Made by a program: the position numbers and the translations under genes
Assembly: GCA_902523495.1 (NCBI GenBank)
Contig: CABYZU010000002.1
Span: forward strand, 1 to 64,000
Direction: 5' to 3'
DNA: 64,000 bases
Source of the DNA: an uncultured Pelagibacteraceae bacterium
Lineage (GTDB): Bacteria > Pseudomonadota > Alphaproteobacteria > Pelagibacterales > Pelagibacteraceae
The notes under the pieces: generated by a model
The model's database searches: none
The model's input: only the letters and a program-made list of their open reading frames with translations
Told to the model about the DNA's origin: nothing
In this document: in pieces, positions 14,396-20,608 of the stretch
Layout: the number at the start of each line of letters is the position of its first letter
How positions within the stretch are numbered: position 1 is the first letter of the stretch

Positions 14396-15886
14396 ATGAA
14401 CTTATTCTTTATACTGGGAAACCAATTATTTCCATCAAAATACTTAGATCGCTTCAAAAAAGACCATCTATTTTTCATGGCTGAAGATTATGAATTGTGT
14501 ACTTATGAAAAACATCATAAACAAAAGATACTTCTTTTCTTATCTTCTATGCGATCACATGCAGAAAGTCTTAAAAAAGATAAATTTAAATTAGAATATA
14601 TTAAAATTGAAGATAAAGAATTTAAAGATGATTATTTAAAGAAATTAAAGAGAATCATTATTTCAAAAAAAATAAAAGAAATTTCAAGTTTTGAAGTTGA
14701 GGATAAATTTTTTGAAAAAAAAATAAATCAATTTATTAAAAAAGAAAAACTAAAGTGGAATGTTATACAAACCCCAATGTTTTTAAATTCAAGAGAAGAA
14801 TTTAAACAATATTTATCTAAATCAAAAAAACCTTTTATGGCAACTTTTTATAAGGATGTCAGAAAAAAATCAGGAATATTAATGGGTTCAGATGGGAACC
14901 CTATAGGAGGTAAATGGAGCTTTGATGAGGATAATAGAAATAAATTACCTAAAAATATTTCTATTCCAAAATTTCCGAAAATTAATGAGACAAACCACAC
15001 AAAAAAATTAAAACCAATTATTGAAAAATTATTTAATGATCATCCTGGTAAAACAGATAATTTTTGGCATGCAACAGAATATAATGATGTCATTAAGCTT
15101 TTAAATTTTTTCATTAAGGAAAAATCAAATTTATTTGGTGATTATGAGGATGCAGTTGATCAAAAGGATAATATCTTATTTCATAGTGCTTTAAGTCCTT
15201 ATATAAATTTAGGCTTGATAACGCCTGAGTTGATTATAAAAAGAATACTCGATTTTCATAAAAGTAAAAAAATTAAATTAAATTCTTTAGAAGGTTACAT
15301 ACGTCAAGTAATCGGTTGGAGAGAATTTATGAGAGGAATTTACCAGAGTTACTCTAATGAAATGGAAACTGGAAATTTTTTTAAACAAAATAGAAAAATG
15401 AAAAAATCTTGGTACGAAGGAACAACTGGTTTACCACCACTCGATTATGCAATTAAAAACGCTCTTAATCATGGATGGTCTCATCACATTGAAAGGTTAA
15501 TGATTTTATCCAACATCATGAATCTATGTGAGATAAAACCAACTGTTGTTTATAAGTGGTTTATGGAAATGTTTGTAGACTCCTCTGATTGGGTAATGGT
15601 GCCAAATGTCTATGGGATGGGGTTGTTTAGTGATGGAGGAATATTTGCAACCAAACCATACATTTGTGGATCAAGTTATTTTATGAAAATGATGGATTTT
15701 AAAAAAGGTGATTGGTGTAACATAATGGATGGGTTGTACTGGAGATTTATTGATCGAAACAGAAAATTTTTTTTGAAAAATCCTAGACTATCCATGATGG
15801 TTAGAATCTTTGATAAAATGAAAACTGATAGAAAAAAATTAATTCTTCCAGCTGCAGAAAGATTCATTAAACAAAATACAATTTAG
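14396..15886 (+). CDS. Cryptochrome/photolyase-related protein (PhrB-like family)
   Basis: The 496-residue protein starts LFFILGNQLFP and has the extended cryptochrome/photolyase-related architecture of prokaryotic (6-4) photolyases: an N-terminal alpha/beta domain to about residue 130, then a helical FAD-binding domain with LEGYIRQVIGWREFMRG, GWSHHIERLM, and VMVPNVYGMGLFSDGG. The DNA-lesion reading His-Ile-x-x-Leu-Met segment is present. The C-x2-C pair that helps ligate the Fe-S cluster in PhrB is absent between KPY and LYW; only C378, C424 and C441 occur in the region. It is likely to use light to repair DNA or to sense light. It leads an operon with DUF2256 and DUF4174 genes. Confidence 0.9.
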   Translation: MNLFFILGNQLFPSKYLDRFKKDHLFFMAEDYELCTYEKHHKQKILLFLSSMRSHAESLKKDKFKLEYIKIEDKEFKDDYLKKLKRIIISKKIKEISSFEVEDKFFEKKINQFIKKEKLKWNVIQTPMFLNSREEFKQYLSKSKKPFMATFYKDVRKKSGILMGSDGNPIGGKWSFDEDNRNKLPKNISIPKFPKINETNHTKKLKPIIEKLFNDHPGKTDNFWHATEYNDVIKLLNFFIKEKSNLFGDYEDAVDQKDNILFHSALSPYINLGLITPELIIKRILDFHKSKKIKLNSLEGYIRQVIGWREFMRGIYQSYSNEMETGNFFKQNRKMKKSWYEGTTGLPPLDYAIKNALNHGWSHHIERLMILSNIMNLCEIKPTVVYKWFMEMFVDSSDWVMVPNVYGMGLFSDGGIFATKPYICGSSYFMKMMDFKKGDWCNIMDGLYWRFIDRNRKFFLKNPRLSMMVRIFDKMKTDRKKLILPAAERFIKQNTI

Positions 15887-18604: not shown

Positions 18605-19306
18605 ATGAGATTTTTAAAAAATATAATTAAGACATCGGTCATTATAGCTCTAGTTTTATCTTTTTCAAATATCTCAAATTCATCAGAAAAAAACTATTAC
18701 AAAGATTTGATTAATGACTGGTCAAGAATATTTCCAGATAAAAATAGAAATGCTGCAGGCCCAAAATTCTTTAAATATATAATTGATAAAGATATTACTT
18801 ATAAAGATTTTATTGAGTACAACAAATTATATTGTGCTGTATCTGGCTCATTAATTGATCCTAACAGTCAGCCAGATTTTATATTTCTTAAAGAAAGAAA
18901 AACTAAAAATAAGATTTGTGGTAGCTACTATAAATGCTGTATCCCATGTTCATGTGATATTATGAAATACTCCGAGGTTCAAAGAATGAAACATAAATTT
19001 AGCGATGGTGTAAAAGAGTTTTTTGTTTTTACAATTAAAAATCCCTGCAAGAAACAAGACTTTCCAAACAGAGTAAATAAAGATTATTTTTGTGATGGTA
19101 ATAAAATTAATGATAAACAAGTTTACAGTATCAAAGATCGAATAGTAATAGGTTTACTACATAACGGGAAAAGCTGTGAAAAGGATGAGATAGATTTTGT
19201 AAAGAGTCATCAGATAACTGGAAGATTTTGCGAATTTAGAAATAATACCCCTATAGAAAATTTAGAAGCTGGCATGGGTGATATTTTTATAAAACTTGCA
19301 AGATAA
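18605..19306 (+). CDS. Exported cysteine-rich hypothetical protein
   Basis: I do not recognise a family. The 233-residue protein has a signal-type N-terminus (residues 1-26) and many cysteines: a cluster CGSYYKCCIPCSCD near residue 103, and further single cysteines through the C-terminal half, suggesting disulfides or a metal site in the periplasm. The sequence also holds KNPCKKQDFPNR and a terminal EAGMGDIFIKL segment. It lies six bases before the small ArfA-like gene and may be co-transcribed with it. Confidence 0.75.
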   Translation: MRFLKNIIKTSVIIALVLSFSNISNSSEKNYYKDLINDWSRIFPDKNRNAAGPKFFKYIIDKDITYKDFIEYNKLYCAVSGSLIDPNSQPDFIFLKERKTKNKICGSYYKCCIPCSCDIMKYSEVQRMKHKFSDGVKEFFVFTIKNPCKKQDFPNRVNKDYFCDGNKINDKQVYSIKDRIVIGLLHNGKSCEKDEIDFVKSHQITGRFCEFRNNTPIENLEAGMGDIFIKLAR

Positions 19307-19312
19307 CTTTTT

Positions 19313-19459
19313 ATGGGAAAGAAAATCAAAAAAAGAAAAAAAATAAAAAAAAAAAATCCAATAGCAAAATTATTAAGTTCACCAATGTTAAGAAATAAAA
19401 TAATAAAAAATGAAAAAAAAATTTATAATAGAAAAAAAATTAAATTTGAGAATGAATAA
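19313..19459 (+). CDS. Small basic protein resembling ribosome-rescue factor ArfA
   Basis: An ATG at 19313 opens a 48-residue, very basic protein. Its core, NPIAKLLSSPMLRNKIIKN, followed by EKKIYNRKKIK, lines up with the remembered core of ArfA (N-A-I-E-A-L-L-x-D-P-L-F-R-x-R-V-x-K-N, then Y-x-R-K-x-K) with matching spacing up to a two- to three-residue difference before the Tyr. ArfA binds ribosomes stalled on non-stop mRNA and recruits RF2. The N-terminal lysine run is extra; a C-terminal hydrophobic tail like that of full-length E. coli ArfA is missing, as in its active truncated form. The match is by eye, so the call is tentative, but the gene itself looks real. Confidence 0.6.
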   Translation: MGKKIKKRKKIKKKNPIAKLLSSPMLRNKIIKNEKKIYNRKKIKFENE

Positions 19460-19468
19460 AATTTAATC

Positions 19469-20608
19469 TTAATTAAAAGTTGAAATTATTTTGGGAATAT
19501 AATTCTTAAAATTAAAAAAACCTTTATTACAATATTGCCAAGAATACTGATCTAGTTTTCTATACAGAAAATCAAATTTTAAACTATTCGAATTTAAATA
19601 GTCCAGATTTTCACCAACATTTGGATATAACGCGAATACTCTTTCATTTATATTTTTAATTTCATTTATATCTATTGTTTCACAACTTATGGACTTATCA
19701 TTTAATCTTTGCTTTTGGTCATTAATTAAAAGTAATTTAAATTTTATAACATTTTCACTTAATTTTATAGATCTAGTTTCATTTTTATTTGAAATTATAT
19801 AAATCTTTTTAAATTCATTATTTTGGAAATCACTAGCTTCAAAAGATAAATTATTTTCAAAAATTAAAAGATTTCTATCATCTAAATTTTTATTACTAAA
19901 ATCTTGTTTGACAATTGGGTAAGTTTTTTCCGAAACCCTTGGGGGAGCGTTCTCATTTAACTTTATATTATTAAATCTATTATTTGTGAATTTTTTAATA
20001 TTCCATTCACTGGCTAGATAATGTTTTCCTTGCGTTTGAACCCCAGCTACCCATCTCCAACCAAGAGTGTTAGACGCAGCATCTCCATCATAAAGGTGTT
20101 GCATAAAAAATTCTGCTCCTAACTGCCAGGGCAACTCCAAAGTAAAAATCCAAATACTTGCGAACCACATTCTTGTATGATTATGTAAATAGTTGTTTTC
20201 TTTGAGTTCATTTACCCAAAAATTAAAACACTCAATATCTGTTTTCCCTTCAATAGCGTTTTTATAATTTTGGTTATTCTTAAAATCTTCTCTAATTTTA
20301 TTCAATTCAACCAAATAATCTGTCCAAACATTTGGTCTTAATTCTAACCAACCTTTCCAATAAGTTCGCCATAAAACTTCTTGAATAAATTTTTCATTTT
20401 TTGAAAAAGAAAATTTGCTGAGTGATTTCTCAATTATTTCTCTTTCGTTTATGACGCCATGGGTAATGTAAGGAGATAAACAGGATACATTGGTTCTCTT
20501 TTCTGGCCCAAAATCAAAATTTCTTAATTTAGAATATTCAGCAAGATTTTCTTCAACAAAATTGTTTAATTTATTTAAGGCTGCAGCCCTAGACGCTTCA
20601 AATTTCAT
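19469..20608 (-). CDS. FAD-binding photolyase-like protein with alpha/beta domain at the C-terminus
   Basis: The 379-residue protein begins directly with the helical FAD-binding domain of photolyases: RTNVSCLSPYITHGVI near residue 38, VLWRTYWKGWLE, NHTRMWFASIWIF, and the flavin-site DGDAASNTLGWRWVAG near 190. The usual N-terminal antenna-binding alpha/beta domain is missing. Instead residues 240-379 look alpha/beta (LLIFENNLSFEA, KKIYIISNKN, FKLLLINDQKQRL, RVFALYPNVGENL), as if the Rossmann domain had moved to the C-terminus. It is likely to be light-driven repair or a photosensor. It is convergent with the ArfA-like gene and precedes no other gene within seven bases on its own strand except psiE upstream. 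Confidence 0.88.
   Translation of the reverse strand: MKFEASRAAALNKLNNFVEENLAEYSKLRNFDFGPEKRTNVSCLSPYITHGVINEREIIEKSLSKFSFSKNEKFIQEVLWRTYWKGWLELRPNVWTDYLVELNKIREDFKNNQNYKNAIEGKTDIECFNFWVNELKENNYLHNHTRMWFASIWIFTLELPWQLGAEFFMQHLYDGDAASNTLGWRWVAGVQTQGKHYLASEWNIKKFTNNRFNNIKLNENAPPRVSEKTYPIVKQDFSNKNLDDRNLLIFENNLSFEASDFQNNEFKKIYIISNKNETRSIKLSENVIKFKLLLINDQKQRLNDKSISCETIDINEIKNINERVFALYPNVGENLDYLNSNSLKFDFLYRKLDQYSWQYCNKGFFNFKNYIPKIISTFN

Follow-up and report, generated by a model that had tools for sequence, protein, structure and literature searches.

The window analysed here, 64,000 nucleotides in length (contig 2, bases 1-64000, of an 873 kb, 41-contig genome that is 75.6% complete), contains at 19313-19459 on the forward strand an open reading frame with an ATG start and a TAA stop. 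On the basis of this ORF, its orthologues, its dN/dS ratio and its profile score relative to shuffled sequences, we describe the 48-amino acid product (MGKKIKKRKKIKKKNPIAKLLSSPMLRNKIIKNEKKIYNRKKIKFENE) as a short-loop ArfA-like protein and a candidate RF2-dependent ribosome-rescue factor. Its start codon lies 6 nt after the stop of a same-strand gene (18605-19306) encoding a 233-amino acid protein with an N-terminal signal-like segment, for which a Pfam scan gave no match. A convergent photolyase-family gene (FAD_binding_7 by Pfam; 19469-20608, reverse strand) lies on the other side. Neighbourhood comparison identified both as conserved neighbours, within a set kept around short-loop arfA that encodes a DPRP photolyase-like protein, an FG-GAP-type protein, the secreted-like protein of 229-233 amino acids, the convergent photolyase and an argininosuccinate-synthase-like protein (the FG-GAP and argininosuccinate-synthase labels were read off the sequence, not taken from a scan). 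Two distinct photolyase/cryptochrome-family genes, no more than about 5 kb apart (14396-15886 and 19469-20608), are both retained around this locus.

ArfA is a short peptide, ordered mainly when on the ribosome, whose region N14-N32 meets the decoding centre and RF2. The window protein resembles E. coli ArfA (PF03889, YhdL) in its N-x-I-x-x-L-L-x-x-P-x-hydrophobic-R block and in its basic C-terminal tail with Y-x-R-K, and it is about the size of the active core. In the alignment, codons N15-N33 (19355-19411, forward strand; NPIAKLLSSPMLRNKIIKN) correspond to E. coli N14-N32, and codons E34-K42 (EKKIYNRKK; 19412-19438, forward strand), part of the positively charged C-terminal tail (KNEKKIYNRKKIK), correspond to the mRNA-channel segment. 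P24 and L26, the latter hydrophobic, align with Pro23 and F25 of ArfA (for the role of Pro23 and of the 25-29 segment, see PMC5378476). The preliminary description, which had the position and length of the ORF exactly right, also held that its spacing matched the ArfA core. The motif itself (N-x-I-x-x-L-L-x-x-P-x-x-R, then K-N and Y-x-R-K) is present, but E. coli ArfA has two more residues between K-N and Y-x-R-K (KNKKGKGSYMRK as opposed to KNEKKIYNRK), and the KGKGS segment, which canonical SAR11 ArfAs retain, is gone from the window protein. Its further observation that the hydrophobic C-terminal tail is missing was accurate, as the protein ends at KFENE. The window protein also differs from E. 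coli ArfA in having an additional Lys-rich N-terminus and an alphaproteobacterial host, and in having Lys at the A18 position, where canonical SAR11 ArfAs have Lys or Glu; in E. coli, A18T inactivates ArfA whereas A18C is active (PMC4245945). Truncation to 40 residues inactivates E. coli ArfA, whereas about 55 are enough for activity (PMC8012679); in the same numbering the window protein ends at about 49 and its canonical SAR11 counterparts at about 44, which makes the SAR11 proteins natural cores near the minimum.

A search for a regulatory RNA or non-stop hairpin at the window arfA found none. Because there is neither a stable fold (folding z-score +0.41) nor a terminator-like site within the ORF, non-stop autoregulation of the E. 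coli type appears to be absent. ArfT of Francisella (40 amino acids) and BrfA of Bacillus, which most of the literature treats as independent of ArfA, are likewise very short, basic rescue factors that recruit release factors. ArfT also appears to be without non-stop regulation (PMC6299226); it keeps a KGKGS-like segment and can use RF1, whereas the window protein has no KGKGS. The window protein contains no GGQ, which sets it apart from ArfB, a protein of about 140 amino acids with a GGQ-bearing RF-1 domain.

Direct scans of the window protein against Pfam, NCBIfam and the PDB gave no match, and the PF03889 search that the preliminary description had proposed as a check was negative for the protein itself (cut-off 25.5 bits), as was DUF7230 (PF23876; cut-off 27 bits). 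For so short a protein with such a strong compositional bias, these negative scans are not decisive. Intermediates of 34-38 amino acids from other SAR11 genera, represented by MKKRNPIAEDLRSPKYKKRIVKPKKGKGSFKRKKK (g9), MKKKNPVAKDLRTPKYKKRIVKSKKGKGSFKRKKT (g12) and LKKRNIIAKDLFSVKYKKRVVKPKKGKGSYNRKKFKKV (g2), connect it to ArfA. These canonical SAR11 relatives clear PF03889, with 32.8, 26.4, 29.3 and 31.8 bits against the 25.5-bit cut-off, and are members of that family; the g9 protein also matches solved ArfA chains in the PDB across the full core (E ~8e-4). Forms that have lost GKG come next in the series, with MKRNPIAKALRTPKFKKKVIKDKKKYNRKKVKKYF (g5) followed by the window type. Across SAR11 genera and phages, short-loop and canonical sequences are linked by a gradation.

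The gene is real and conserved. A search with the window protein found the window type in 19 of 201 sampled genomes of the genus, at 77-100% identity and counting the window's own genome, and 53 named loci carry this form, most of them from uncultured Pelagibacteraceae and a few from other SAR11 single-cell genomes; the close relatives among them are single-cell genomes labelled Pelagibacteraceae. A spurious ORF within AT-rich sequence would fit with the ease with which Lys-rich frames arise from poly-A-rich DNA, and with the failure of the family models used for annotation to name the gene. However, mean dN was 0.042 and mean dS 0.51 over 28 core codons in 44 distinct gene copies, and the ratio of 0.08, which reflects strong purifying selection, refutes a chance frame. 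In many genomes short-loop arfA overlaps its neighbours at both ends, an upstream glutamine-amidotransferase gene at the start and the following gene (MNNKIFEWAG...) at the stop, as is typical of translational coupling. Given that these overlaps are preserved across many genomes and that the neighbourhood is conserved, we regard a spurious ORF as scarcely credible. It is also very unlikely, if not to the same degree, that the product is a small basic protein of another kind, such as a peptide that binds nucleic acid or associates with the ribosome, whose likeness to ArfA stems from convergence or composition and not from descent. The very Lys/Asn/Ile-rich composition, the large HMMER composition bias (12.4 bits) and the lack of a direct Pfam or NCBIfam match all speak for convergence. 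Against it, the window protein scored 23.5 bits after bias correction with a canonical ArfA profile built from 18 sequences (SAR11, other alphaproteobacteria, a pelagiphage and E. coli) and zero of the window type. The best of 5000 shuffles reached 9.1 bits and the best unrelated sequence among about 3900 six-frame fragments 8.5 bits, whereas the g5 forms scored 31-35 bits. The N-block alone, free of the low-complexity tail, taken from locus L159 and identical to that of the window protein, scored 28.2 bits with a profile of SAR11 long-form N-blocks, for which the best shuffle gave 14.3. These scores, together with the graded series, the PF03889-positive intermediates and the PDB match, bear out the ArfA-like identity first suggested from motif spacing, and we conclude from sequence comparison that the window protein is homologous to ArfA by way of the intermediates. 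It is best filed as a variant within the ArfA kind, of a derived short-loop type; missing both the Pfam cut-off and KGKGS, it is not filed as a strict PF03889 member. A short-loop ArfA-like factor that is an ArfA homologue and probably works like ArfA is its best description.

In SAR11, ArfA is nearly universal. A profile that covers both forms matched 259 of 297 genomes of the order, nearly always in one copy and in all 12 genera searched, and 179 of 199 genomes of the genus; this is conservation far wider than the preliminary description had guessed. The sister family within the order gave only weak, tentative matches (E 1e-6 to 1e-3). The canonical form, of about 34-38 amino acids with KGKGSFKRKK, occurs at L130:1501-1605 and throughout the SAR11 loci L129-L158; relatives of these proteins clear PF03889 where tested and carry no NCBIfam name. 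In four genomes (G341, G923, G243 and G911) the canonical match holds one TAA inside the aligned stretch, which may be an early end or a real truncation. The remaining 38 of 297 genomes of the order gave no ArfA match, among them at least two single-contig genomes (G217 and G235), and the combined profile found no ArfA in the single-contig genus-mate G226 in the genus search. Such genomes may represent either true absence or loss, or further divergent forms. An estimate that only about 10% of the genus has ArfA, obtained with the window protein alone as query, was dropped; its weak matches included canonical ArfAs.

The canonical arfA locus lies between a winged-helix (Trans_reg_C) gene and a convergent gene for a PfkB-like kinase, adjoining nth (kinase and nth were named from sequence), and a control genome with the canonical form has arfA at this place. 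The locus is present but empty of arfA in 12 genomes that carry the window form, where its neighbours usually abut, and it is likewise empty in two genomes with other short forms, a genus-mate and a member of g5. Because genomes with the short-loop form lack canonical arfA at its usual locus, the two forms look interchangeable, and functional replacement would be expected to give just such mutual exclusion between forms encoded at separate loci.

The short-loop form is also found in viruses. IMG/VR contigs contain at least 109 ArfA relatives, many of them short-loop. Tblastn of phages gave nothing with either the window protein or a canonical SAR11 ArfA as query, a short-loop phage protein found phage matches only at E >=0.5, and a scan of viral contigs with a narrow window-type alignment gave no match. 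The short-loop phage proteins tested fall in phrog_20887, and most of them match DUF7230, one above the cut-off. Both families are without an assigned function and have the N-block and short loop (KRNPVAKSLRTPKFKQKIVKNKKQYNRKK) seen in the window protein; the members that we met are mostly phage-borne, whereas the window protein is chromosomal and has no DUF7230 match. The phrog_20887 profile matches the window protein (27.1 bits, 5.9e-6) as well as a PF03889-positive SAR11 ArfA (26.5 bits), and the g5 SAR11 relative scores exactly 27 bits with DUF7230, which is its cut-off. DUF7230 hardly occurs in the sampled chromosomes of the phylum, and our literature search found no mention of it. We propose that phrog_20887 and DUF7230 may be short-loop ArfAs. 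As to whether the short loop arose in phages or within SAR11, N-blocks score alike against the SAR11-long and phage-short profiles. Loci L212-L291 from IMG/VR include many phage proteins with the ArfA N-block and either a long or a short loop.

Among 20 chosen SAR11 genomes, all 20 have an alphaproteobacterial tmRNA and 18 have SmpB. RF-1-domain proteins number at most two in each of the SAR11 genomes examined, and because their reading frames are all about 345-365 amino acids long, none of them is the size of ArfB. At 11 of the 12 RF-1-domain loci inspected an SPF motif marks RF2; the remaining one is of the RF1 type. Counted from SPF, SAR11 RF2 has Ile (Val in some) at the position of E. coli V198 and Phe at that of F217, where SAR11 RF1 has Ala; the V198-F217 pocket of RF2 is the ArfA docking site (PMC6299226). 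In the window's own genome, which is 75.6% complete, we found neither SmpB nor an RF-1-domain gene, both of which occur in its relatives.

We consider it quite probable, judging from sequence and gene content, that the product of the ORF belongs to the ArfA lineage as a derived short-loop form and works as the cell's backup ribosome-rescue factor, its likely function being to release ribosomes stalled on truncated mRNA in an RF2-dependent manner. From the gene, its ArfA homology, the near-universal ArfA, the partner genes in relatives, the lack of ArfB in the genomes examined and the mutual exclusion, we infer RF2 binding, RF2 dependence, rescue activity and every biochemical step as follows. 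On a ribosome at the 3' end of a stop-less mRNA, the basic tail EKKIYNRKKIK would occupy the empty mRNA entry channel while the NPIAKLLSSPMLRNK block would sit in the decoding centre, where it would recruit and open RF2, whose GGQ motif would then hydrolyse the peptidyl-tRNA. Short-loop ArfA would in this way back up trans-translation and take the role played by ArfB in most other alphaproteobacteria. Rescue by this form is supported by homology, the dN/dS of 0.08, about one ArfA copy per genome, the tmRNA/SmpB/RF2 setting and the emptied canonical locus. Counted against it are the lack of PF03889 or NCBIfam recognition, the loss of KGKGS from the mRNA-channel segment, Lys at the A18 position, the lack of any sign of non-stop regulation, and an incomplete source genome in which neither SmpB nor an RF-1-domain gene was found. 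The reduced mRNA-channel motif would equally suit an ArfA descendant with another job, one that binds the ribosome or RF2 without peptide release as a competitor, a hibernation-like factor or a domesticated phage host-takeover protein, as would the abundance of the short-loop form in phage contigs and the want of a known function for its closest families. However, the short-loop form replaces canonical arfA in its genomes and is under strong purifying selection in chromosomes, and since canonical ArfA also occurs in phages, phage carriage is no argument for another role. We consider such a change of function unlikely.

SAR11 is the most abundant bacterial group of the surface ocean, and its genomes are among the smallest of free-living cells. 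According to one review, ArfA occurs only in some beta- and gammaproteobacteria (PMC8012679). A 2024 survey of more than 15,000 genomes, which used nucleotide profiles, found arfB in 2,022 of 2,376 and arfA in 0 of 2,376 Alphaproteobacteria (PMC11633108). Nucleotide profiles would probably miss such short AT-rich genes. SAR11, previously counted as having no ArfA, has related genes in most of its genomes and appears to depart from the rest of its class in both arfA and arfB. We lean towards a broader proposal, that ArfA, not ArfB, may be the standard trans-translation backup of SAR11 and that the KGKGS-less short-loop class of some SAR11 chromosomes and many phages may be a functional second ArfA architecture, able to open RF2 without the canonical mRNA-channel motif or non-stop regulation. 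If SAR11 generally keeps ArfA and has no ArfB, the known distribution of rescue pathways is incomplete for one of the most numerous groups in it, and two rescue systems would be retained even in a highly streamlined cell. The short-loop form is a test of which ArfA segments are required, and it offers a concrete candidate function for phage families now labelled unknown.

With E. coli ArfA as query, ArfA-like proteins were found in phages of Caulobacter, Brevundimonas, Erythrobacter, Citromicrobium and Roseobacter; several of these matches had only weak E-values and are clear ArfA sequences on reading. The pelagiphage HTVC027P protein gp30 was called ArfA in 2025 (PMC12753301). This protein of a SAR11-infecting phage resembles the window protein (NPVAKEVRTPKYKSQIIKPKKGRGSFKR; PF03889 match of 20.2 bits) but is long-loop, phage-encoded and different at its N-terminus. 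In Salmonella phage Arash, gp99c (L124:517-741) is annotated as 'ribosomal protein L2', and its frame holds the ArfA-like sequence VKAILQDPLFSQKVEKPKKGKGSYRR. Roseobacter phage CRP-212 (L121:601-696) and Pseudomonas phage pf16 (L123:601-717) each contain an ArfA-like frame without a gene annotation of its own.
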